Source of the DNA: a virus
IMG/VR virus record: IMGVR_UViG_3300048839_000906
Coordinates: 1-34,091 of that record
Strand: one strand, 5' to 3'
DNA length: 34,091 nt
Both the position numbers and the translations under genes were made by a program. Of this stretch, positions 3,828 to 34,091 are shown one piece after another. Numbering within the stretch: position 1 is the stretch's first letter; every line of letters begins with the position of its first letter. Below the pieces are notes generated by a model, which was given only the letters and a program-made list of their open reading frames with translations, had not been told where the DNA came from and did no database searches.

Positions 3828-3836
3828 GCACGGGGC

Positions 3837-7102: not shown

Positions 7103-7363
7103 TCAGTTTGTCCTTTCGTTCAGTCGGTCAAGAATAGCCTTCAGCTTGCGCGCCTTGCGGCGGGGATACTCGGCGATGTTCTGGGCGCGCCAGTAGGTCT
7201 GTTTGCACCCGTGGCACACGTTGCGGGTGGTGGGCGTCCCGTCGGGGCGGATGCGCCCGGTCACGGTGAAGTATTCGGGCGTGGCGGGCATAACCACGCC
7301 ACAGACCCGGCAGGGCTTCTCGGCCTTGCGGCGGCGGGGTTGGTAGGTCACGGGGTTAATCAT
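7103..7363 (-). CDS. Zinc-ribbon protein, 86 aa
   Basis: Two Cys pairs, CRVC and CHGC, about 30 residues apart, in the same layout as the zinc ribbons of the proteins at 5691-6044 and 31992-32717. Flanks are basic (PRRRKAEK; ARKLKAIL). No HNH core is present. ATG overlaps the stop of the PP-loop gene (ATGA). The last codons (NERTN) are written by the same bases that form the AACGAAAGGACAAAC leader motif. Confidence 0.72.
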   Translation of the reverse strand: MINPVTYQPRRRKAEKPCRVCGVVMPATPEYFTVTGRIRPDGTPTTRNVCHGCKQTYWRAQNIAEYPRRKARKLKAILDRLNERTN

Positions 7364-8193
7364 ATTCCACAGTAGCCTGTTTCGCAGTCGGTGTCAGTGT
7401 CCTCAAACAGGTCGAACAGTGTGGCCTGTTCGCCTACGGCCTGATCCAACGGCAAACAATCGCGGTGAATGTAGACCGGCGTGCCTCCGAGTGCTATGCG
7501 CTTTTCGTTTATTGCCCGTTCCATATCAACGGCGGCCTGAAATTGCTCAGGGTCATTGCGGCGCATTTCGATCCACTCTGTGCGCTTTGTGAACGGACAG
7601 AACCAGCACGCGGATTTGGCCGGCACGGGTAAGCCAGTAGATTCGATATAGGCCATTGCGTGAATGCGCGACAACTGAGCTTCAATCAGCGGATAGACAT
7701 ACAGCCTTTCAAAACCCCCCGCATCATGCCAGTCTTTGGGCTTGCGTTCGACTCGGTACGCTTCTTCAGTAGAGAAGCCGATGCCGAGTTCGACCCGCGC
7801 ATGACCTTGCAACTTAATCCAGTTATTGATCGGTTCAATTTTGAAGTTGGCTGTACAGACCTTACGAAATGGCATTTTCCCTTTTTGGTACACAGGGAAC
7901 CGCACCATTTTAGACTCGACGCCCATAATGTTCTGATACAGCGTCTCACCCGGCCTGATGTGCGTCACTTTCCGCACAATTTCCAAGCGCACGCCCGCTG
8001 ATTGCGCCAGCGGCAGAGCGACCTCATACAGATGCTTCAAAGTCGCCGGGTTTTCGCTGTCGTCTCCGACATTCGCCATGACAAACGCGTCAAACGGGTT
8101 AGGCAGTTCACCACGGGCTTGCATCGCCAGCACCGCAAACGACTGCACACCGCCGCCGTAACTAAAAACCCGGAATGCGTTAGTAGTAGTCAC
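7360..8193 (-). CDS. PP-loop ATP pyrophosphatase-family protein (PAPS reductase-like), 277 aa
   Basis: The frame is open further upstream, but the start is best placed at GTG 8191-8193, which overlaps the previous stop as GTGA. FSYGGGVQS (residues 10-18) is the PP-loop of the phosphoadenosine-phosphosulfate reductase superfamily. Cys residues at about 113 (KVCTANFK) and at 196 and 199 (ACWFCPF) fit a metal or Fe-S site seen in some members. Related phage proteins are annotated as PAPS reductase or DNA-thiolation-like (DndC), but no dnd partners are here. Adenylation or sulfur chemistry on nucleic acid or a small molecule is possible. The substrate is unknown. Confidence 0.8.
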   Translation of the reverse strand: MTTTNAFRVFSYGGGVQSFAVLAMQARGELPNPFDAFVMANVGDDSENPATLKHLYEVALPLAQSAGVRLEIVRKVTHIRPGETLYQNIMGVESKMVRFPVYQKGKMPFRKVCTANFKIEPINNWIKLQGHARVELGIGFSTEEAYRVERKPKDWHDAGGFERLYVYPLIEAQLSRIHAMAYIESTGLPVPAKSACWFCPFTKRTEWIEMRRNDPEQFQAAVDMERAINEKRIALGGTPVYIHRDCLPLDQAVGEQATLFDLFEDTDTDCETGYCGI

Positions 8194-8714
8194 GGCGCGT
8201 ACTCCACCGGCCAGACGTTCCAGGGGGCGACGTAACGGTTCGGTCTGTCCTGATAGGCTGAGTAGTCCACCTCGACCGCCCACGCCGATTGCTGAACGCT
8301 GGGCGCGTCATTCGACACGTACCAGCTACCGTCCTGGTTGCCGAAGTCCAGGAACAGCTTGGTTCCGGCAAGCCACCGAAACGACTTGCTGACCGTCAGC
8401 CCGTTACAGCCGGTCACCACGCCGCCCTCTCTGATCTGCGCGCCCGGCGATACCAGATCGGTGCGGTGATGACCAATGGCGTCCATCACCATCGCCGATG
8501 CGACCAGCAGCGTGTCCAGCGCCGGGGCGGGCAGTCCCAGCACCGCGCCCTCAATCTCCAGAGCCATCAGATCGAATCCACCAACGACCGCCACATTGCT
8601 GCGGAACGTCGAGACTCGCGCCAGTTGGCCGCTGGTCGGCAGGGCAGCCATCTCCATGCGCGCCCCGGCCTTGCGGATGTTCAGCGGGTGACTTGTCAGG
8701 TTCACAAATTGCAT
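8190..8714 (-). CDS. Conserved phage protein of unknown function, 174 aa
   Basis: The start FVNLTSHPLNI and the later G-Q-L-A-R-V, G-L-P-A-P and T-D-L-V-S-P-G motifs match from memory a common uncharacterised phage/bacterial family of about 100 residues. Here a C-terminal extension (about residues 120-174) rich in aromatic residues is added. The exact shared leader AACGAAAGGACAAAC lies 3 bases before ATG. Its stop overlaps the PP-loop gene's GTG. No catalytic motif is seen. Confidence 0.75.
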   Translation of the reverse strand: MQFVNLTSHPLNIRKAGARMEMAALPTSGQLARVSTFRSNVAVVGGFDLMALEIEGAVLGLPAPALDTLLVASAMVMDAIGHHRTDLVSPGAQIREGGVVTGCNGLTVSKSFRWLAGTKLFLDFGNQDGSWYVSNDAPSVQQSAWAVEVDYSAYQDRPNRYVAPWNVWPVEYAP

Positions 8715-8892
8715 TCAGTTTGTCCTTTCGTTCGGTCTCGGATAGGGTGAGGAGGGCGGCATCCACAGCGGCCTCAAGGCGCACGATCTGCGCCGGGTCG
8801 TCGTCGATGCCCTTGACGTAACGCCACCAGCCGCCCCGGTAGGCATCCGAGGCGGCGCGGGCGGCTTGGCGGGCGGCGGGGAGGGTGGTCAT
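8551..8892 (-). CDS. Hypothetical protein, 113 aa, with a long overlap into the next gene
   Basis: ATG overlaps the upstream TGA (ATGA), and residues 1-58 look like an ordinary soluble helical protein (ARQAARAASDAYRGGWWRYV). After that, the frame runs 164 bases inside the next gene, where the residues look low-complexity. Either the overlap is real, or a stop has been lost by a recent frameshift or a base error. The first half is the credible part. Function unknown. Confidence 0.45.
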   Translation of the reverse strand: MTTLPAARQAARAASDAYRGGWWRYVKGIDDDPAQIVRLEAAVDAALLTLSETERKDKLNAICEPDKSPAEHPQGRGAHGDGCPADQRPTGASLDVPQQCGGRWWIRSDGSGD

Positions 8893-17369: not shown

Positions 17370-17612
17370 TTACCAGCGGTCAGTCGAGTCGGTCGGAACC
17401 AGATACCCGCCCCGGCAACGCTGTGCAGGGCATTCGATCTTGCCCTCGCCAGCTTCACAGGCCGGGCAGTCCCAGACCTCGCCGTCGGGCTGGACTTCCT
17501 GCCCACTGCCAAAACAGGTCTGGCAAGTCAGCCGACCCTCGCCGTCGCAGTTGTCGCAGGTTTCCCATTCTTCCGGTTCAAACTGCGACCAACCGTAAGC
17601 CGACGTACTCAT
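17370..17612 (-). CDS. DnaJ-type zinc-finger protein, 80 aa
   Basis: Four Cys pairs (C19/C22, C30/C33, C49/C52, C61/C66) in C-x-x-C-x-G-x-G-like units (CDNCDGEG, CQTCFGSG) match the DnaJ central zinc-finger module, but no J domain is present. It is the first gene of the early region, directly after promoter 17661-17689, with the exact leader AACGAAAGGACAAAC before ATG. First-expressed small zinc proteins often act on host machinery; that role is inference. Confidence 0.82.
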   Translation of the reverse strand: MSTSAYGWSQFEPEEWETCDNCDGEGRLTCQTCFGSGQEVQPDGEVWDCPACEAGEGKIECPAQRCRGGYLVPTDSTDRW

Positions 17613-17660
17613 GAGTTTGTCCTTTCGTTGTCAGGCGTCCCGTTTGCGCCTGATGAGTAC

Positions 17661-20271: not shown

Positions 20272-21947
20272 GGGCGCGCCCCAGACCAGCGGGGGACGAT
20301 GTTCACTCCCACCGTGAATGCGGTGTCGGCATAGGAGAGCGTCGGGCTTGCGTTGCTGGAATACTGCCCGACGATGTACAGACGATTGGTGACGCCGGGC
20401 ACGAGGGTGATGCCGTTGCCGGTCAAGCCCAGCACCTGCACGGTCGGAGACGGGAAGTTGAAAGCTCCGACCGCGGTTTCTTCTCTGGACAAATACCCGG
20501 TATTGTCGAACATGGTCAGCGATATAGCCGCTGCCGCCGCCGATGCATTTGCGTCAATAATGACCGCCTGCTCATCAAGGGGCACGAGCAGCACGTCGTA
20601 AATTTCGATGGTGGGAGTCGTAGCTCCCAGCTTTGTGGTGCGGATGCGGAATGTGATCAGCGAATCTGTCGAGTACTTAAGCTGCGGAATCTCAAGCTGC
20701 CCCAAGTACGCGTCGGTAAAAGGGGACGAAATGGCGAGAGTCACGGTCGGCAGTTCGATTGTGCCGGTTCCGTTGGGCAAAGACACCTCGCACTGAAACT
20801 GCATGGCGTTGGCTGTACCAGCGGTCACGCGATAGCGCATGTAGACGGCGTATCTTTTGCCGAATTGAAGGATTCGTTTCGCCATGGTCATGATCGTCTG
20901 ATCGGTGACTACGCCCGCTGCAAAGACTGCCCGAACCACGCTGCGATTGACAATCGAACCATTGCCCAACAGCCCGTACGCGACAGTGGGCTTGGTTACC
21001 GTCGGGTTGCCGGAGGTGATTGTCCAGTCGTTGGCCGAGTAGCTCATGCGGCGACGGGAATTGTTGGCGGCAGTGTTCTGAGAAGGCCACAAGTCGCTTT
21101 GGGTGACGCGCGCCAGATACAGCTTGACCTCATTCAGGTTGGCCGTGGCGTTGTACTGCAAAAATATTTGAACCAGCGCCTCCGCATCGCCCGGAATTTG
21201 ATCGGGCGTGAATTCAATATAGTTGGGACGGGTGACGCCCACCTCATCGAACGGGTACAGCGTGGCGCTATAAGCGAAGTCAGCGGCGGCGGCGGGGGCG
21301 GCATAGAGCGCCACGTCCGTGTAGTTGTACTGATCTGCCGTCGGGCTGGCGCTGACAGTCGGCGTGCGCCCCCGCGACTGAAATGCGTAGATGCGCGGGT
21401 TGTCGGTCGGAGCCACCGCCCGCCATGCCGGTTCCCGCTCGACGGTGATCGTCACAATCGCCTGTTCGTCGGGGTGGTTGAGCGGGTCTTGCTCGGCGCT
21501 GATTTCGAGGTTGTAGACCCAAGCGAACTGCGAATAGGTCGCACCCACGGCGCGCCATTCCAGATAGACCGGGGCGTCGCTGGATTCTTCCCAGTAATCG
21601 CGGGCGGCGCGGCCAAAGCGCGCCAGTGCCGAGAGCGCCGCACTGCGCGCCGATGCGTCCCCGGCGCTGCTATACAGTGTGATGGTTTCGATGACGTTGC
21701 CGTCCGGACCAAGCATCAACTGACGCCCCTCCGACGCGCTGCTGCTCGACCACACGCCGCCGTCTTTGATGTTGGCAAAGGCCGGTGACCAGGCGTTACT
21801 GCCCGCCGCGCCCTGGACACTGAACGTCCCTTCAGCGAGGTTAATCACCTCCGGGACGGGGATGGGCAGAGGTTCGGTGTTGGGCGCGCCCAGAGAGAGC
21901 GGCGACGGCGAACCGAGATAGAGCTTCAGAGTGGTTGAACTGCTCAT
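20268..21947 (-). CDS. Distal tail protein-like, 559 aa
   Basis: A large beta-rich protein directly downstream of the tape measure (but for the TnpB insertion), the place of the distal tail (Dit) gene. I chose ATG 21945-21947 because it overlaps the stop of a short upstream frame (ATGA); a GTG at 21971 extends it by eight codons. Residues about 130-170 (YSQFAWVYNLEISAEQDPLN...IVTITVERE) fit tail-tube-like ring folds, and the C-terminal half is rich in short beta repeats, possibly carbohydrate-binding. Upstream ribosome binding is weak, perhaps because of the insertion. Confidence 0.7.
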   Translation of the reverse strand: MSSSTTLKLYLGSPSPLSLGAPNTEPLPIPVPEVINLAEGTFSVQGAAGSNAWSPAFANIKDGGVWSSSSASEGRQLMLGPDGNVIETITLYSSAGDASARSAALSALARFGRAARDYWEESSDAPVYLEWRAVGATYSQFAWVYNLEISAEQDPLNHPDEQAIVTITVEREPAWRAVAPTDNPRIYAFQSRGRTPTVSASPTADQYNYTDVALYAAPAAAADFAYSATLYPFDEVGVTRPNYIEFTPDQIPGDAEALVQIFLQYNATANLNEVKLYLARVTQSDLWPSQNTAANNSRRRMSYSANDWTITSGNPTVTKPTVAYGLLGNGSIVNRSVVRAVFAAGVVTDQTIMTMAKRILQFGKRYAVYMRYRVTAGTANAMQFQCEVSLPNGTGTIELPTVTLAISSPFTDAYLGQLEIPQLKYSTDSLITFRIRTTKLGATTPTIEIYDVLLVPLDEQAVIIDANASAAAAAISLTMFDNTGYLSREETAVGAFNFPSPTVQVLGLTGNGITLVPGVTNRLYIVGQYSSNASPTLSYADTAFTVGVNIVPRWSGARP

Positions 21948-21976
21948 CGAATTTCTTGGGCTGGATCCCACGCCAT
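21944..21976 (-). pseudogene. Short frame end before the distal tail gene (possible remnant split by TnpB)
   Basis: The minus strand encodes MAWDPAQEIR then TGA, and that TGA overlaps the distal tail ATG as ATGA. Together with an ATG at 23189-23191 that overlaps the tape-measure stop, this may be the two ends of a small gene cut by the TnpB element. The 415-codon frame that joins them runs antisense to tnpB and is not itself a real gene. Confidence 0.3.
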
Positions 21977-22054
21977 TTCAATGACGGTGGAGTAAAGCCC
22001 AATTCCCCCTTTCAAAGGATTGAAGTTCTGAACAATATACACTAAACTTGTAGT

Positions 22055-23170
22055 ATGAAACTGACCGCTAAAATCAAACTTTTTCCCACAGCCGAACAGC
22101 GTCAATTTCTCTTGCAAACGCTTGAGGTGGCGAATGCTGCTTGTAATTGGATGAGCGAGCGCGCGTGGGAAACGAAAATTTTTGGCGCTTTCACACTTCA
22201 TAAGATTGTATACGCTGAAGCGCGGGGTAGATTTGATCTGGCCGCGCAGATGGTTGTTCGGTTGATTGCCAAGGTTGGCGATGCGTACAAACTGGACAAG
22301 AAAACGCAGCGTACGTTCAAGCCTCGCGGCGCAATTTCTTACGACAATCGCATCTTGACTTGGCGTACCCAGATGCGCCGCGTCAGCATTTGGACTGTGG
22401 CAGGTCGGATGGAAATTCCCTATGCCGCAGGCCAACGTCAGATTGAATTGCTTAAATGCCAGCGAGGTGAAAGCGACCTGTGTTATATCGGCGGCGTGTT
22501 TTACTTGTTTGCCACCTGCGAGATCGAAGAGCCTACGCCAATTGACGTTGAAGGTGTTGTTGGCGTCGATCTTGGAGTGGTAAATATTGCGGTCACATCG
22601 GACGGCGACACGTATAGCAACGAAACAATTGAGCGCAATCGCAAGCGTCAAGAGCGACTTCGCGCGCAATTGCAGCGCAAGGGCACTCGTTCTGCCAAGC
22701 GCCACCTTAAAAAGCTTAGTGGGCGCCAATCTCGTTTTCAAGCTAACACCAATCACGTTATCAGCAAGCGTATTGTCAGGTGTGCCGAACGCACAAAGCG
22801 CGCCATTGCCGTTGAGGAATTGACGGGCATTGGTGTGCGGACGAGGGTTAAGGGCAAAGACAACCGCGCCAAACGAAGCAATTGGGCGTTCGCTCAGTTG
22901 CGCCAGTTTCTGACCTATAAGGCTTGTCTGGCAGGCGTGCTGTTGGTCACGGTCGATCCTGCTTACACAAGCCAGCGTTGTTCCGAGTGCGGGCACACTG
23001 AGCGAGCCAATCGCCGCAATCAAGCGGAGTTTTGCTGCATCTCGTGTGGATTCAGTGCTAATGCTGACCATAACGCCTCTCTGAACATTGCTTTGGCCGC
23101 TATCATTCGGCCAATCGTGACGAGTGAATTGGGATCGTCCCCGCCTCAGTTGCAAGCCACGCCGCTTTAG
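22055..23170 (+). CDS. tnpB: TnpB RNA-guided endonuclease
   Basis: This 371-residue protein is a TnpB/Fanzor-type nuclease, the family ancestral to Cas12. The RuvC-like triad is intact: D172 in VDLG, E254 in AVEELTGI and D338 in NADHNAS. The zinc finger is complete (C309, C312, C328, C331). The N-terminal domain (LFPTAEQRQFLLQTL) is also intact. Cleavage guided by an omega-RNA read from the element's right end is expected from the family. Gene composition is lower in GC than neighbours, showing transfer. It lies antisense to the late operon, without a tnpA partner. Confidence 0.95.
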   Translation: MKLTAKIKLFPTAEQRQFLLQTLEVANAACNWMSERAWETKIFGAFTLHKIVYAEARGRFDLAAQMVVRLIAKVGDAYKLDKKTQRTFKPRGAISYDNRILTWRTQMRRVSIWTVAGRMEIPYAAGQRQIELLKCQRGESDLCYIGGVFYLFATCEIEEPTPIDVEGVVGVDLGVVNIAVTSDGDTYSNETIERNRKRQERLRAQLQRKGTRSAKRHLKKLSGRQSRFQANTNHVISKRIVRCAERTKRAIAVEELTGIGVRTRVKGKDNRAKRSNWAFAQLRQFLTYKACLAGVLLVTVDPAYTSQRCSECGHTERANRRNQAEFCCISCGFSANADHNASLNIALAAIIRPIVTSELGSSPPQLQATPL

Positions 23171-23180
23171 CGGTTGCGGC
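23050..23180 (+). ncRNA. Predicted omega-RNA region of tnpB (approximate)
   Basis: In this family the guide RNA overlaps the 3' end of tnpB and continues past its stop to the right end of the element. The segment holds the CCGC-TTTA-GCGG hairpin and fits that place. The guide would be the bases just beyond the right end, here in the tape-measure 3' end. This is inference from family rules. Confidence 0.4.
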
Positions 23181-25841
23181 CTATGATGCATACCCTCGCA
23201 GTTGTCGGCTGAATTGACCAGCAGCGCCCGCCGCTTGCGCGTTGCCGGACGTGTATAGATTCATGCTCACATTATACACGTTGCCGCCGCCGCCCATGCC
23301 CGCGCCCATGTTCAGCCCGGCCAGACCGCTCAGGATCGCCTCGGTCGTGCGGTTGTTCAGCACGGCCAGCGCGGTATTGGTCGAAACCAGTTCGCGCCCG
23401 CGCTCGCCGACAATGGCCTGACCGGGGGACATGACGCCGCCGCTCGCGTAGCCGTCAAAGCCCGAACCCATAGCGCGGGGCGGTACGGTCGCAACGTTCG
23501 GAATGATGCCGCCCGACGCCTGAATCGCGTCAAACGCGGTCTGCTTCCATTCCTCCCACCACGCCAGCGCGGGCGGGAATGTCGCATCATGCGCCGCCAG
23601 CATCCGCGCCATGCTGTCCTCAGTGGCAGTCGCGGCAATATCCATCGCCACGCCCACGTCAGAGCCGGTCAAGGTGGCCTCGTTGCGGACGGCGGTAAAG
23701 CCTTCCGTGATCGGAGTCAGCCCGGCCTTCACATCCGCCGCTTCAGTGATGATCTCGGAGGCCGCGCCGGTGAATGTGGTCAGTACGCCGCTGATAGCCT
23801 CGTCGATGGTGATTCCGGCGGTGGCTTGGTCGAGCATGGTCTGAAGCGCGCCGTCAAGGATGGTCTGCGCGCCGCTGGTATCCACGGTCTGAATGTCGGT
23901 GGCCGTGGCAAGGTCAAGGTTAAGCGGGCCAAATCCCAGCCCGGTCGTGGTGGTGCTGGTCAGAGTCACGCCGCTCACAGCGTCCACAATGGCCTGCGCC
24001 TGCGCTACCGCCCCGCCCTCAATGGACTCAGCCACCGCCGCCGCTACGCTGGTGCTCAGCGCCTTGTCGGTCACGCCGCGCCGAATGGCGTCCATAACCG
24101 CCGTAGTGATTTGCTCAGGGTCAGAAGCAAACACAAGGTCATAGGTAAGCTGTTCAGCCGCCGCCCCCGCCGCGCTCTGGCGCAAGGCCGTGCCCGCCTC
24201 CGCGTTGCCGAAAAATTCCGCAACGCTGGCCAGCGCGAGCTGCAGCTCAATGATGAAGCCGCCAATCGCGCCCTCAAAGTCGCGGATGCGGTCGCTCAGG
24301 CCGGGTGCTTGGAGCGCAATTTCGAGCGCCTCCGGTAAGCCCGTGCCCGACCGCAGTTCCGCGCCCAGCGTCTGGATTTTCTCGCGCGCGCCGCTGATCC
24401 ACTCATCAAGCCCGCCGGTGACCGCGCCCAGCGACGCCAGGAATTCCACTTCAAACGTGCGTGCCAGCGAGGTCAGGTCACCGCCCAGCGTGTCGAAAAT
24501 GGCCGACGTGGCCTCAGCCGCAGACCCGGCCTCAACTTCGATACTGTCGAAGGTCGCGCCCAAAATGGCCTGTACGGTGGCATCCTCAGCGGGCGTGCCA
24601 AAGATTTCAAACAGGTCGAAGTCGGTGCCCTGACCGCTGGCCAGCGCCTTTTGCACGGCGGCGAAATATTCCTGCCCGGTAATGTCCCCAACACGGGCGG
24701 CCTCCAGCAGCAGCCCGGCCTCATCAGCGCCCAGCACACGGGTCAGGGCTTGCGCCGGAATGCTCTCCGGGTCGGCCACGGCTTCGGTCAGCTTGATTCC
24801 GGCCTCTTTCAGCGTGTCGGCCAGCTTGTCGGCGTTCAGCGCGCCCGCGTCAAGGCCGGTAGTCAGGAAGCTGATGAACTGACCCGCATCCGCGCCCATC
24901 GTCGCAAACTGCCCGGAATACTCGCGGATGGTATCGAGGAAGTCCTCCGCCCGATCAGCGCCGTTCTGAAAGCCGGTGGTCAGCACGTCGGCGGCGCTGG
25001 CGAAGTCGGGCGAAAGTCCCGATGATACGAGGTTGGTCATGGCCGTAAACACGCCGTTGGCATCCTGCCCTTGCGCGGCGGCAATTCCCAACACCGCCTC
25101 AATGTCCGCCCCCAGCGTCTCGGTGTTGCCGGTCACGCCCAGGATTTGCGCGGCCAGCGTCGCCAGTTCCGCACGGCTCGAACCGAAGTTGTTGGCATAG
25201 GCGGCATTGACCGCCTGAAGCGCCGCCGCGCTCTCTTGCCCACGGGCGGCGAGGATGTTGCTGGCTTCCTGCATGTCCTGGACTGACCCGATAATCGGCA
25301 GTTCCTTAATGGCCGCCGCGCCCGCAATACCGCCCTGCGCCAGATTCAGCACGAGGTCGATGGTGGCAAGGTTTTTCACGGCGCGCAGGTCGGACTTCAG
25401 GGCGTCCAGATCGGAGGCGTCCACTTTCACGCTGACTTCGGGCGTCTGCCCGTCAATGGCGCGCACGTCGCTCTCTGCCCGGTCAATCTGCGAGGTATCG
25501 GCGGTGACGGTCACGTCGGGCGTTGCGCCGTCCAGCATCCGCACGTCGCTGGCGGCCTTGTCCAGCGAACCGGCGTCAGTAGTCACCGTGACTTTGGGCG
25601 TCGCGCCGTCGAGCGCCCGAATGTCGCTCTCGGCCTGATCGACCTGCGACGTGTCCACCTGAAGGTCAACCGTGACGTTGCCGCGCAGGGCGTTCAGGGC
25701 GCGCTCGGCCTTGTTTGCCGTGCCCACCAGCGCCGCCAATGCCCCGTCCACGCGCACAGCAGCGCGCTGGGCGGCGGTCATGCCCTGAATGTACTTGCGG
25801 AACTCAACGTTCAACTCAGCGGCAATCTGCTGGTCACCCAT
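23181..25841 (-). CDS. Tail tape measure protein, 886 aa
   Basis: The longest gene; it sets tail length and would predict a tail of about 130 nm at 0.15 nm per residue. Residues about 37-157 hold 4-5 repeats of 26 residues (D-x-S-x-[VIL]-D-x-A-x-S-D-[IV]-R-x-[LI]-D-G-x-T-P-x-V-x-V). The middle is long helix/Ala-rich. The C-terminus has YASGGVMSPGQAIVGERGREL, typical of siphovirus tape measures. It starts at ATG behind AGAGGTAGGG, 3 bp after the chaperone gene. Its stop is 10 bp from the TnpB element end. Confidence 0.93.
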   Translation of the reverse strand: MGDQQIAAELNVEFRKYIQGMTAAQRAAVRVDGALAALVGTANKAERALNALRGNVTVDLQVDTSQVDQAESDIRALDGATPKVTVTTDAGSLDKAASDVRMLDGATPDVTVTADTSQIDRAESDVRAIDGQTPEVSVKVDASDLDALKSDLRAVKNLATIDLVLNLAQGGIAGAAAIKELPIIGSVQDMQEASNILAARGQESAAALQAVNAAYANNFGSSRAELATLAAQILGVTGNTETLGADIEAVLGIAAAQGQDANGVFTAMTNLVSSGLSPDFASAADVLTTGFQNGADRAEDFLDTIREYSGQFATMGADAGQFISFLTTGLDAGALNADKLADTLKEAGIKLTEAVADPESIPAQALTRVLGADEAGLLLEAARVGDITGQEYFAAVQKALASGQGTDFDLFEIFGTPAEDATVQAILGATFDSIEVEAGSAAEATSAIFDTLGGDLTSLARTFEVEFLASLGAVTGGLDEWISGAREKIQTLGAELRSGTGLPEALEIALQAPGLSDRIRDFEGAIGGFIIELQLALASVAEFFGNAEAGTALRQSAAGAAAEQLTYDLVFASDPEQITTAVMDAIRRGVTDKALSTSVAAAVAESIEGGAVAQAQAIVDAVSGVTLTSTTTTGLGFGPLNLDLATATDIQTVDTSGAQTILDGALQTMLDQATAGITIDEAISGVLTTFTGAASEIITEAADVKAGLTPITEGFTAVRNEATLTGSDVGVAMDIAATATEDSMARMLAAHDATFPPALAWWEEWKQTAFDAIQASGGIIPNVATVPPRAMGSGFDGYASGGVMSPGQAIVGERGRELVSTNTALAVLNNRTTEAILSGLAGLNMGAGMGGGGNVYNVSMNLYTSGNAQAAGAAGQFSRQLRGYAS
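25371..25733 (-). repeat. Tandem 26-residue (78-bp) repeats in the tape measure gene
   Basis: Units begin at about residues 63, 89, 115 and 141, exactly 26 residues apart, with a weaker unit before them. They share the pattern D-x-S-x-x-D-x-A-x-S-D-V-R, then D-G-A-T-P. Such repeats can change tail length by unit gain or loss. Confidence 0.85.
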
Positions 25842-30097: not shown

Positions 30098-30389
30098 GAT
30101 TTTTCAATCCTTTCAGCAACATATCCCAACTTATCGCAAGGGCGCTTTGGGATAAAACCAGTGTAACCCAGAAGGTGACGCCCGGCGCAGTCGCATAGAG
30201 CAAAGCGACCGCCCCCGACACCCACACCGACATGCACCAGATGCACGAGAACACGCCGTCTGCGCCCAGCTTCAGCACCGCAAAACCGCGCAACCGCCCG
30301 AACATATCGAACGGGCCGGACTCATTGACCAACAGGCTGCTGATTCGCCATGTCGCCAGCGCGCACAGCAGCAGCGTCAGGGCGTCCAT
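30075..30389 (-). CDS. DUF1360-family membrane protein, 104 aa
   Basis: ATWRISSLLVNESGPFDMFGRLRG followed by CIWCMSVW matches, from memory, the DUF1360 family of small phage and bacterial membrane proteins. Two or three hydrophobic spans lie at about 3-20, 55-70 and 72-92. ATG overlaps the glycosyltransferase stop (TAATG). Function unknown; it sits in the head gene cluster, and a lysis or entry-related membrane role is only a guess. Confidence 0.75.
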   Translation of the reverse strand: MDALTLLLCALATWRISSLLVNESGPFDMFGRLRGFAVLKLGADGVFSCIWCMSVWVSGAVALLYATAPGVTFWVTLVLSQSALAISWDMLLKGLKNHGDSETP

Positions 30390-31879
30390 TACAGTTCCAG
30401 CCAGCCAATGCCCATGTTGACGTAGAACGGGCGCATGGCCTCGCGGTAGCCCTTGCGGAGCGTCCCGGCTTTGGTCTTGCTGATCTCATTCCAGAAGATG
30501 GCTGAACCGTTGTAGTCGGTCAGTTCGTCCGGGCGTCCGTCGAGGTGAATGTCGTGCATGGCAACGACTTTCTCAGCCACGGCGCTGAACTTCAGCCAGT
30601 CGCGGCGCGCCGGTTCGGTTTCGTGATCGCCGTCGATGAATACGAGGTCGTACTTGGCATTCGGCGTGTACTCGGCATGGTCGGCCTGCACGAACGTGTA
30701 GCGCTCGGCGGGCTTGTAGCTCGGTTCGTTGATATCCACGGCGGTGACCGTCCAGCCCATCACCTCGACCATGAACCGCGCCAGACCACCCGACGAACCC
30801 GTGCCAATCTCCAGCACGGTCTGGATGCCCAGCGATTCCATGCGCGCCAGAAACAGCGCCAGTTCCTGCGGGTTCTGCTGAATGTCCATGCCGGAAGTTC
30901 TGAGCGGATGCCACGAGGCGCGCACCCCGGCCTTGCGGATAGCCTTCTCAAGTTCGCGGACGCGCGGCGTGCGCTCGTTTTCGGGCATCTCGACCAGTTC
31001 GAGCTGCGCGTCCGAGAAGGCGAATTCGAGTTCTTCTTTGGTCGGCAGCAGCGCCTTGTTGTCGCGCACCAGCTTGAAGCGCCGCGCATCGGCGGCGTGG
31101 TCGCGCTTGTCGAGCCAGACGTTGGTATGGCTCCCGATGTTGCCGTACTTGTGCCCGGTGGCCTTGCCGACGTAGCTCAGGCGGCTCGACCAGGTGGGTT
31201 GCACCAGGATCGCCTCGTCGGACTGCTCACCTACGACCGCCTGCTTGTTGGCCGCAGCCTGTCCACAGCATCCCATGTCCAAATCCTTTCGATATTTGAG
31301 GAACATTTCGCGCAGGAATTGATTCCAGCGCGGATCAGCGCCCGCCTCTTTGGAGCGAAACCCGTCGGGCGTGTAGTGAAAGAGCGGCTCGCGCAGCACT
31401 GCCGACGTAAAGCCGCTGGCGTTGGCCTTGAGGAAGAAGTCGGTATCCTCGCCGCCCCACAGCGTCGGGTCGTAGCCGCCAATGGCGTGATAGATTTTGG
31501 TCGGCATGAGCGCCGGAGGGAGGTGAAAAGCCTTCTCGCCGGGCTTGCCGTGGAAGCCATAGCACGACGCCGCCTTGACGTGGCGGCCATGCTCGTACCA
31601 GTCCGAGTACACATAGGCAGTGCGCTTCTGAAGCCAGAACGCATAAAGCCGCTCCACAAAGTGCGGCTCTACGTAGTCGTCGGCGTCCAAAGTCACGAGG
31701 AACGGCGTCTTTACCTGGGCGGCTAGATGGTTGCGGCCATATCCCGGCCCGCGCCGTTCCTCGTCGATGTACGCCAGCCATTCCGATTTGACGGTCTGGG
31801 CTTCGATGGAGCGCACCGCCCGCGTGAGCAACGGGCGGTGACGTGGACCAACTGGAATGATGAACGTGACCAGGCTCAC
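30389..31879 (-). CDS. Three-part glycosyltransferase / linker-domain / methyltransferase fusion, 496 aa
   Basis: Residues 1-200 are a GT-A (GT2) glycosyltransferase: FIIPVGPRHRP start, D65-A-D67 metal motif in TLDADDYVEP, and GGYDPTLWGGEDTDF with E144. Residues about 203-275 form a small domain (CCG; SRLSYVGKATGHKYG) that resembles a short phage protein often coded near the capsid. Residues about 325-496 are a class I SAM methyltransferase of the CmcI/Methyltransf_24 type (VLEIGTGSSGG 355-365, VDINEP, FIDGDHE 414-420). It may sugar-coat then methylate a virion protein or the host surface (inference). GTG start with GGAG upstream. Confidence 0.88.
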   Translation of the reverse strand: MSLVTFIIPVGPRHRPLLTRAVRSIEAQTVKSEWLAYIDEERRGPGYGRNHLAAQVKTPFLVTLDADDYVEPHFVERLYAFWLQKRTAYVYSDWYEHGRHVKAASCYGFHGKPGEKAFHLPPALMPTKIYHAIGGYDPTLWGGEDTDFFLKANASGFTSAVLREPLFHYTPDGFRSKEAGADPRWNQFLREMFLKYRKDLDMGCCGQAAANKQAVVGEQSDEAILVQPTWSSRLSYVGKATGHKYGNIGSHTNVWLDKRDHAADARRFKLVRDNKALLPTKEELEFAFSDAQLELVEMPENERTPRVRELEKAIRKAGVRASWHPLRTSGMDIQQNPQELALFLARMESLGIQTVLEIGTGSSGGLARFMVEVMGWTVTAVDINEPSYKPAERYTFVQADHAEYTPNAKYDLVFIDGDHETEPARRDWLKFSAVAEKVVAMHDIHLDGRPDELTDYNGSAIFWNEISKTKAGTLRKGYREAMRPFYVNMGIGWLEL

Positions 31880-31897: not shown

Positions 31898-31926
31898 CTA
31901 CAGGCCGCTGTCGAACTCGCTGACGC
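31898..31926 (-). repeat. 29-bp capsid 3'-end repeat, copy B
   Basis: It matches copy A at 32811-32839 with two mismatches (in the GAATAC/GAGTTC codons). Direct orientation; flanks the HNH cassette. Confidence 0.9.
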
Positions 31927-31993
31927 GATAGCGCGTGGCAATAGGGGGATATGAGATGGGCCGCACGGAATCACGATTGCCGCAATAGGCATT
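31898..31993 (-). pseudogene. Capsid-gene C-terminal remnant (native 3' end) left by the HNH cassette
   Basis: The minus strand keeps an open frame that ends VSEFDSGL and TAG, 18 bp before the GT/MTase start. The last 29 bases match the present capsid gene end (32811-32839) at 27 positions. Since this copy sits next to the downstream gene and its ribosome site, it is probably the original capsid 3' end. Confidence 0.6.
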
Positions 31994-32717
31994 AGAAAAG
32001 ACGACCTTTCCATTGGGTGGGTGTTTTTGCACCCTTCGACCTATTGCAGTTATAGCAGGCGCAACAAATGTTGTTTGGTTCGTTGCTACCGCCTTTGGCT
32101 ATCGGGAAGATATGGTCAATCTCATAACTCCCGTTCAATTGGCAATCACACCAGTAGCATAGACCTTTTTGGCTTTTGTATTGTGCCTCCACGTCTTGCC
32201 TTGTGAACTTGCCGGATACCTGCGCTAGTCTTGCGCGTCGTTTTGCCGCTTGCGCCCTAGCAGCAAGGATTGCCTTTGGGTTAACCTTCCGGTTGGCGTT
32301 GTAAACAGCCTTGTTTTTCGCATACCTGATGCTGCTTTGCACACGTTCTTTTGCAAGCCTTATTGCACGGGCTGGCGTGTCCTTCTTTCGTGCTACCCGC
32401 TTGTATGCGTTCTCGCATGTTCTGCAAGTAGACCGATGAAGGCCTTTCGAGTTTAGACGAAAGTTTTCAAGCGTTTCAGGCATTGAGACATCACACTTTG
32501 TGCATATCCGATTACCGTCTACTCTCAATTGCCGCTTGGGTTTGTAGCCAAGAACTTTTCGATTGTAAGCGGTATTATTTTCAGCCATGCACTTCTTGCA
32601 TCTCGATTGCCACCCTTTCCGGTTGTTTGAGTGATAAAACCACTCGATGGTTGCCGGAAAACCTTGTTTGCACTGAGTGCAAACCCGCAGTTCTGTGATA
32701 CAATCTACTGTGTCCAT
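31992..32717 (-). CDS. HNH homing-type endonuclease, 241 aa
   Basis: The C-terminal HNH core is intact: C187/C190 (LCYWC), EIDHIFPI with H202, N215-N216, and CYNCNRSKG with N225. The N-terminus carries two zinc ribbons (C13/C16/C40/C43 and C72/C75/C98/C101). It lies after the capsid gene in a lower-GC stretch, flanked by a 29-bp repeat of the capsid 3' end. It has its own -10 box and a strong AGGAGG site six bases before ATG. It likely cuts related phages' capsid genes and spreads by repair; that is a family inference. Confidence 0.9.
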   Translation of the reverse strand: MDTVDCITELRVCTQCKQGFPATIEWFYHSNNRKGWQSRCKKCMAENNTAYNRKVLGYKPKRQLRVDGNRICTKCDVSMPETLENFRLNSKGLHRSTCRTCENAYKRVARKKDTPARAIRLAKERVQSSIRYAKNKAVYNANRKVNPKAILAARAQAAKRRARLAQVSGKFTRQDVEAQYKSQKGLCYWCDCQLNGSYEIDHIFPIAKGGSNEPNNICCACYNCNRSKGAKTPTQWKGRLF

Positions 32718-32752
32718 TCTAGTCCTCCTATGACTATTTTGGATTTTTCTAG

Positions 32753-32786
32753 GGCGGGATGTTCATGCATCCCGCCTTTTATTATA
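32753..32786 (+). terminator. Plus-strand terminator hairpin, also 5' leader hairpin of the HNH mRNA
   Basis: A perfect 9-bp stem GGCGGGATG/CATCCCGCC with a 6-base loop is followed on the plus strand by TTTTATTATA. On the minus strand it would be the first structure of the HNH transcript, starting next to the -10 box at 32781. Confidence 0.7.
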
Positions 32787-32789
32787 CCA
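32781..32789 (-). promoter_or_regulatory. Extended -10 promoter of the HNH gene
   Basis: The minus strand reads TGGTATAAT (TG-N-TATAAT), 64 bp before the HNH ATG. No clear -35 is seen, which an extended -10 can do without. Confidence 0.65.
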
Positions 32790-32810
32790 CGCGACCGTCA
32801 GTTACTGACC

Positions 32811-32839
32811 CTACAGGCCGCTGTCGTATTCGCTGACGC
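32811..32839 (-). repeat. 29-bp capsid 3'-end repeat, copy A
   Basis: The last codons and stop of the intact capsid gene. Partner of 31898-31926. Homology stops at the TAG on one side and at GCGTC on the other. Confidence 0.9.
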
Positions 32840-34091
32840 CGCCAGTAATGAAGCTGCTCAGACCCTGAACCACGTCGCGGTAGCCGACGTAGCCAGCGTA
32901 CTCGATGCCGTCGATCTTGAAGCCGAGGAACGGCGCGCGGCACATCAGGCGCATCTTCGAGGCGACCAGCAGTTCATCGCAGAAGCCGCTGCTGCGGGTG
33001 GCGAACATGTACAGGCCGCCGTTGGTGGCCATGCGCGCCGTGGTGTTTGCCATGGCGTTCCACTCGCGGATGTCGGGGTTGTTGAGGTCGAAGTACTGCA
33101 CGAAGGTCAGCGGCTCACCGCGCCACGACAGGGGCACGCAGAACAGCGAACTGGTCAGCGTCCCGGCGTCGTTGGTGACTTCCGCGCCGCTGGTGAACAG
33201 CACCGGCACGCGGCGGCCTTCGATCAGCAGGAACTGCCCCTGCATCATCTCCAGCGAGCGGGCTTCGATGGTGGCCACGTCGCGCACCAGCGGCGTCCCG
33301 GCGTCCGGCGTGAAGCCGCAGCGGGCGTAGGCGTAGGCGCAGCTGAACAGGAACACCAGTTCGCGGAACAGGCGGCTGTCCATCACCAGCGCCCACTCAA
33401 CGCCGTCCATGCCGACCTTGCGGGCCAGTTCCTGACGGCTGAAGTAGATGTCGTGGATCAGTTCGGGCAGGGTGCGACCGTTGACCGTGGCGGTCACGGC
33501 GGCGTCGCCCCAGTCGATGACTTCCGAGTCGGCAGCCGGGCACGCTTCACCCGACACGTCCACGATGCCATCGGTGATGATGCGCTGAAGGCCGTCGAAC
33601 TCCTTGATCCAGCCCGAAGCCGTCGAGGCCGGGACGGTGGCCGAGTTGCCGGTGACTTCGATACGCATGATGGCTTCCTGCACGCCATTGCCCAGGCGGA
33701 ACAGACGCCAGGCGTTTTCGTTCAGCGGATTGAGCGACGGGGCGCGCAGCGGCTCCGGCACGAGCGGGCTGCTCTGGCGGGCGTAGTTGAGGATGGTCTG
33801 CGGCTGAGTGCCGTAGCTGTCATACTCGCCCACATCGGGGATGACGTCCGCGCCGGTCTTCATGTACAGGCGGCTGAACTCGCGGTTGAAGCGGCAGATG
33901 TACACGTCGCCGGGGTTGGCCGGGTCGCCGCAGTAGTCCGCCGGGTTCTCGCCAGAGTTGGCGCTCTGGTAGGTGTAGACGCCGATCACCTCGTTGGCGT
34001 TGCGCGAACGGATGAACGGCATCGCGCCCAGGAAGGTCGCCTGGGTCTGAATGGCGCTGAAGTTGTCCGGGCGGCCATACGGGTACGAGAG
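32811..34091 (-). CDS. Major capsid protein (residues about 45-470; 5' end at 259 after circularisation)
   Basis: This is the bulk of the putative HK97-fold major capsid protein. It is called mainly from position (portal, then protease/scaffold, then this gene) and from size, 470 residues for the joined gene. Residue patterns such as GWIKEFDGLQRIITDG followed by MDGVEWALVMDS fit the spine helix and following core region of this family, though I cannot confirm a profile match. The protein ends VSEYDSGL. These last codons are repeated, with two mismatches, at 31898-31926 on the far side of the HNH endonuclease gene, so the natural 3' end of this gene has been disturbed by an insertion. The frame is open to the end of the window and joins bases 259-1. 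Confidence 0.88.
   Translation of the reverse strand, partial: LSYPYGRPDNFSAIQTQATFLGAMPFIRSRNANEVIGVYTYQSANSGENPADYCGDPANPGDVYICRFNREFSRLYMKTGADVIPDVGEYDSYGTQPQTILNYARQSSPLVPEPLRAPSLNPLNENAWRLFRLGNGVQEAIMRIEVTGNSATVPASTASGWIKEFDGLQRIITDGIVDVSGEACPAADSEVIDWGDAAVTATVNGRTLPELIHDIYFSRQELARKVGMDGVEWALVMDSRLFRELVFLFSCAYAYARCGFTPDAGTPLVRDVATIEARSLEMMQGQFLLIEGRRVPVLFTSGAEVTNDAGTLTSSLFCVPLSWRGEPLTFVQYFDLNNPDIREWNAMANTTARMATNGGLYMFATRSSGFCDELLVASKMRLMCRAPFLGFKIDGIEYAGYVGYRDVVQGLSSFITGGVSEYDSGL
33965..34091. repeat. Terminal overlap, copy 2
   Basis: This is the exact second copy of bases 1-127 and lies inside the major capsid protein gene. It should be counted once in the circular genome. Confidence 0.95.

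Follow-up and report, generated by a model that had tools for sequence, protein, structure and literature searches.

An HNH endonuclease gene between two copies of a phage capsid gene end, probably left by a one-sided transfer

In a viral record of 34,091 nucleotides (IMG/VR IMGVR_UViG_3300048839_000906), analysed over its whole length and called the window here, the end of the capsid gene stands on both sides of an HNH endonuclease gene, raising the question of how the endonuclease gene entered and where the second capsid end came from. Read along the minus strand, the order is the capsid gene with its near end, a leader, the HNH gene, a glycosyltransferase gene fragment of 24 codons (GT′), a junction, a remnant of the capsid tail and the native glycosyltransferase (GT) gene. 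The features, all on the minus strand, are as follows.

32811–34091, minus strand: 3′ part of the capsid gene, which crosses the record ends (start ATG at 259), has homologues in relatives and gives a weak capsid-like model
32811–32839, minus strand: near copy of the capsid gene end (GVSEYDSGL-TAG), closing the working capsid gene
32718–32810, minus strand: HNH leader, with TGGTATAAT (from 32789), a GC-rich hairpin (about 32751–32778) and an AGGAGG ribosome site
31992–32717, minus strand: HNH endonuclease gene, 241 aa, with two N-terminal CxxC zinc-finger-like pairs and a C-terminal HNH domain
31921–31992, minus strand: GT′, codons 1–24 of another, divergent glycosyltransferase gene, by its match to the GT N-terminus
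31921–31926, minus strand: junction GCGTCA, where GT′ ends and the far capsid copy starts, belonging to both
31898–31926, minus strand: far copy of the capsid gene end (VSEFDSGL-TAG), a remnant in native position before GT
30389–31879, minus strand: native GT gene, a family 2 glycosyltransferase fused to a methyltransferase-like domain

The two capsid ends are direct repeats of 29 nt that are identical at 27 positions and both end exactly at the TAG of the minus strand. In dinucleotide shuffles of the 112-nt gap between HNH and GT, the best of 5000 reached 20/29, and the next-best site in a scan of the whole 34-kb window reached 19/29; chance is therefore excluded for the repeat. The sequence-only reading, which had seen the last 29 bases of the capsid gene twice around a low-GC HNH insert of about 880 bp, was correct in both respects: 884 bp lie between the repeats, and GC content is 0.475 in the HNH ORF, 0.66 in the capsid gene and 0.62 in GT.

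That reading had also called for a comparison with relatives lacking the HNH gene, and these show the capsid gene running straight to GT. In the three HNH-less relatives at this boundary (L001, L002 and L008), the capsid stop is followed by a homologous GT gene after 3, 116 and 8 nt, respectively. In the window, 18 nt separate the far-copy stop from the native GT start and 931 nt separate the near-copy stop from it. Since the 18-nt spacing compares with those of the HNH-less relatives, the far copy holds the ancestral position, beside the native downstream gene as had been proposed. In a further relative, L020, the order is capsid-HNH-GT, with homologues of the HNH (29% identity), capsid (31%) and GT (31%) proteins, so that the presence of the HNH gene in L020 and its absence from three relatives support its insertion at the capsid/GT boundary. 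The HNH and GT genes of L019 overlap at stop and start, respectively, the same layout as at GT′ in the window. L020 and L019 came from a search based solely on the HNH protein family, which was not biased by position. In L019, the HNH gene is cut short at its 5′ end by an adjoining fragment of an IS1595-type transposase (L019 2639–3085), which breaks the upstream side of that locus. Elsewhere, an HNH homologue lies within the head gene cluster of an unrelated phage (L017), and L008, despite having no HNH gene at its capsid/GT boundary, has a homologue near terminase; the latter (L008 1–453, 50% identical over the C-terminal 74 residues) stands at the contig start, upstream of the terminase gene. 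Close relatives were sought in phages, viral contigs and genome contigs; none exceeded 45% identity, the best reaching 42–45%.

The capsid gene adjoins portal and head protease genes, and its product is 43%, 34%, 29% and 31% identical to the homologues in L001, L002, L008 and L020, respectively. Its AlphaFold model is too weak to rely on (pLDDT 41), and the best PDB matches of the model are phage capsids. As had been claimed, the near copy closes a working gene: it gives a C-terminus of family-normal length, GG plus 8 residues, like that of L008, while the capsid tail is otherwise variable across the family. An exact 127-bp terminal repeat of the record (1–127 and 33965–34091), across which the capsid gene spans the ends, probably arose when the assembly of a circular or permuted genome overlapped itself.

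A mobile intron in the capsid gene, whose splicing would join the near side to the VSEFDSGL exon, was considered, as introns can carry HNH genes and can interrupt capsid genes (PMC3706429). The capsid gene is already complete, however, and fewer than 160 nt of non-coding DNA are available, part of which is GT′. In addition, no equivalent position of the repeat has a U on the near side and a G on the far side, as a protein-keeping group I splice needs, and no Rfam match to the conserved catalytic RNA core of a group I or II intron was obtained up to E 5. The intron was rejected on these grounds and is extremely improbable, in agreement with the earlier doubt about a group I intron.

The HNH gene thus lies outside any intron or intein, with its own start, stop and leader and a negative Rfam result. 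Its product carries an intact nuclease domain of the HNH (beta-beta-alpha metal) type: the Pfam families HNH_5 (E 1.6e-9), HNH_4 and HNH all scored above cutoffs, and the DH, the N and the zinc cysteines are conserved among homologues. The best PHROG match is PHROG 1035 (T4-type endonuclease VII / HNH phage genes; E 6.9e-27), a likeness that appears to be a family resemblance of the protein. The AlphaFold model (pLDDT 64) is too weak to rely on. The promoter of its own that had been ascribed to the gene comes down to the extended −10-like TGGTATAAT at 32789 on the minus strand; a good −35 is lacking. TGNTATAAT followed by a stable hairpin occurs in the leaders of the window, L020 and L017, in each case before the HNH homologue, and a stable hairpin preceding a free-standing endonuclease gene is known for seg43(25) (PMC2988022). 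On the plus strand, opposite to the genes, 32751–32778 forms a strong terminator-like hairpin with a T-rich tail; in a comparable L020 hairpin, the T run lies on the coding strand. The sole other TGNTATAAT in the window, at 3830 (minus strand), is upstream of the portal-like gene and is possibly a head operon promoter.

The stretch from the HNH stop to the far copy, judged by its match to GT genes, is not spacer but the 5′ end of GT′. Its ATG overlaps the HNH stop (TAATG), and its peptide, MPIAAIVIPCGPSHIPLLPRAIAS, aligns without gaps to the native GT start with 12/24 identical residues and a score of 62, compared with a shuffle maximum of 38 (n=3000). Scores against the other GT starts were 54 for L020, 46 for L008 and 41 for L019. 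As an independent check, tblastn of the GT′ peptide against the window returned the native GT start as the best non-self match (E 4e-5). Nucleotide identity is 34/72 between GT′ and the native GT start and 93% between the two capsid tails. With the GT′ match extending to 31921 and the capsid copy starting at 31926, the two overlap at the junction by a microhomology of at least 6 nt (GCGTCA). From GT′, a chimeric ORF continues out of frame to 31876, and its TGA overlaps the native GT start (GTGA). The 31 open codons that had been assigned to the far copy do end in VSEFDSGL-TAG, but the upstream codons are not capsid codons and the meaningful frame there is that of GT′. GT and the methyltransferase-like domain, one fused ORF in the window, are two separate genes in L008 (10046–10987 and 12061–14493).

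We consider that the locus probably arose by a one-sided transfer, in which a free-standing HNH homing-type gene came from a relative with the order capsid-HNH-GT and the right side was misjoined at a microhomology. The recipient would have had the order capsid-GT, and the donor a layout of the type capsid-TAG-GGTCAG-HNH-TAATG followed by an intact GT beginning MPIAAIVIPCGP. On the left side, recipient and donor would have been joined at the capsid gene, which would leave that gene complete. On the right side, copying would have continued past HNH as far as codon 24 of the donor GT, and illegitimate joining at 6–10 nt of microhomology (GCGTCA...) would then have linked the copy to the broken end of the recipient in the last capsid codons, so that the recipient capsid tail and the whole GT would stay downstream. 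The GT neighbours in relatives, the GT′ match, the gene order in L020 and L019 and the low GC content of the insert count for this origin. Both the role of the HNH protein in making the break and the parental source of each capsid end are inferred here. Two points speak against a one-sided transfer: the parents would be alike in the capsid tail yet not in GT, though the tail is otherwise variable in the family, and the similarity stops exactly at the stop codon, whereas a simple homologous left junction predicts otherwise. Near-identical tails with unlike GT starts could reflect a mosaic donor or a duplication of the tail of one parent.

The latter possibility is the core of a different explanation, in which foreign leader-HNH-GT′ DNA went into the capsid end at a staggered cut or at offset nicks and fill-in duplicated 29 bp of the capsid end of one parent. 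This would account for two nearly identical capsid tails beside a foreign GT′ and for the abrupt loss of similarity on either side of the 29 bp. However, a nuclease stagger of 29 bp would be very long, and one edge exactly on the stop codon with the other within GT-like sequence would be two coincidences, and we regard this course of events as improbable. Ordinary illegitimate recombination between co-infecting capsid-HNH-GT and capsid-GT phages, with HNH as a passenger that cuts nothing, is a more credible but still unlikely alternative. A single illegitimate crossover at a microhomology such as that observed would yield the order of all parts, but it would have fallen exactly at the boundary where the HNH family resides in other phages, which a passenger role leaves unexplained.

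The sequence-only reading had proposed a selfish cassette that had acquired, in its evolution, a replacement capsid end and would thereby leave intact whichever capsid gene it entered. The HNH insertion, by comparison with relatives, and the intact capsid frame stand; a purpose-built cassette looks unlikely, given GT′ and the microhomology join. The net effect would be the same, and there is precedent in atp6, atp9, cox2 and nad3 of Allomyces and Glomus (PMC3630166), but GT′ shows the insert to be a piece of a donor locus and not self-contained. Moreover, L020 has no clear second capsid end, a candidate RNQAVYPR before GT being not significant (p 0.08), and a survey of other HNH loci turned up no flanking repeat of similar strength (score 23 in the window, 12 or less elsewhere; 15 loci, 13 non-redundant, with the upstream side left out for L008 and L016, where HNH lies at the contig end). 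We therefore judge such a cassette very improbable. The findings favour an imprecise transfer leaving scraps of both neighbours, and under the one-sided transfer the misjoin would have re-supplied the capsid end incidentally.

For T4 introns, one-sided homing in which the junctions lie at microhomologies is documented (PMC2988022), and the T4 td case shares with the window an endonuclease gene acquired with homology at one edge and a microhomology junction at the opposite edge. It was seen in laboratory crosses with an intron, whereas the window holds a natural free-standing HNH gene and a break that is presumed. The free-standing HNH genes of Cluster J mycobacteriophages are likewise inserted at gene boundaries (PMC3706429). 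In Omega, insertion of gene 51 gave lysin A a new 3′ end, an event ascribed to repair errors or a distant donor (PMC3706429); there 35 bp were lost, whereas here the capsid end was duplicated and a GT start from another phage was kept. Mobile ORFs of fungal mitochondria (Allomyces and Glomus; PMC3630166) similarly bring a second host-gene end and leave a remnant of the native end beyond the endonuclease gene. Those ORFs are of the LAGLIDADG/GIY-YIG type with long foreign C-termini; the window has an HNH gene, 9 codons and a downstream-gene fragment. Two capsid ends are present in the window, but the insert also carries GT′.

The locus clearly adds a new case to a known kind of event and is an unusually readable natural example of a homing-type gene entering a genome with only one side matching. 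The second capsid end, together with the scrap of donor GT, places the junction to within a few bases, and the locus indicates the likely target boundary, capsid end/GT start, and the case shows phage mosaics arising without breaking an essential gene. It is conceivable, if rather doubtful, that the HNH lineage is specialised for this boundary, spreads with its gene-end context and regularly swaps capsid tails and GT starts. If so, the variable capsid tails of the family would be its footprints.

Two further ORFs on the minus strand of the window, 21944–23191 and 7360–8283, are of low GC (0.52 and 0.55) in a genome of 62–65% GC, and neither gave a Pfam match. A 23-bp repeat, TCAGTTTGTCCTTTCGTTCRGTC, occurs on the plus strand at 7103–7125, 8715–8737 and 17612–17634 (96% and 74%) and is possibly a regulatory site.
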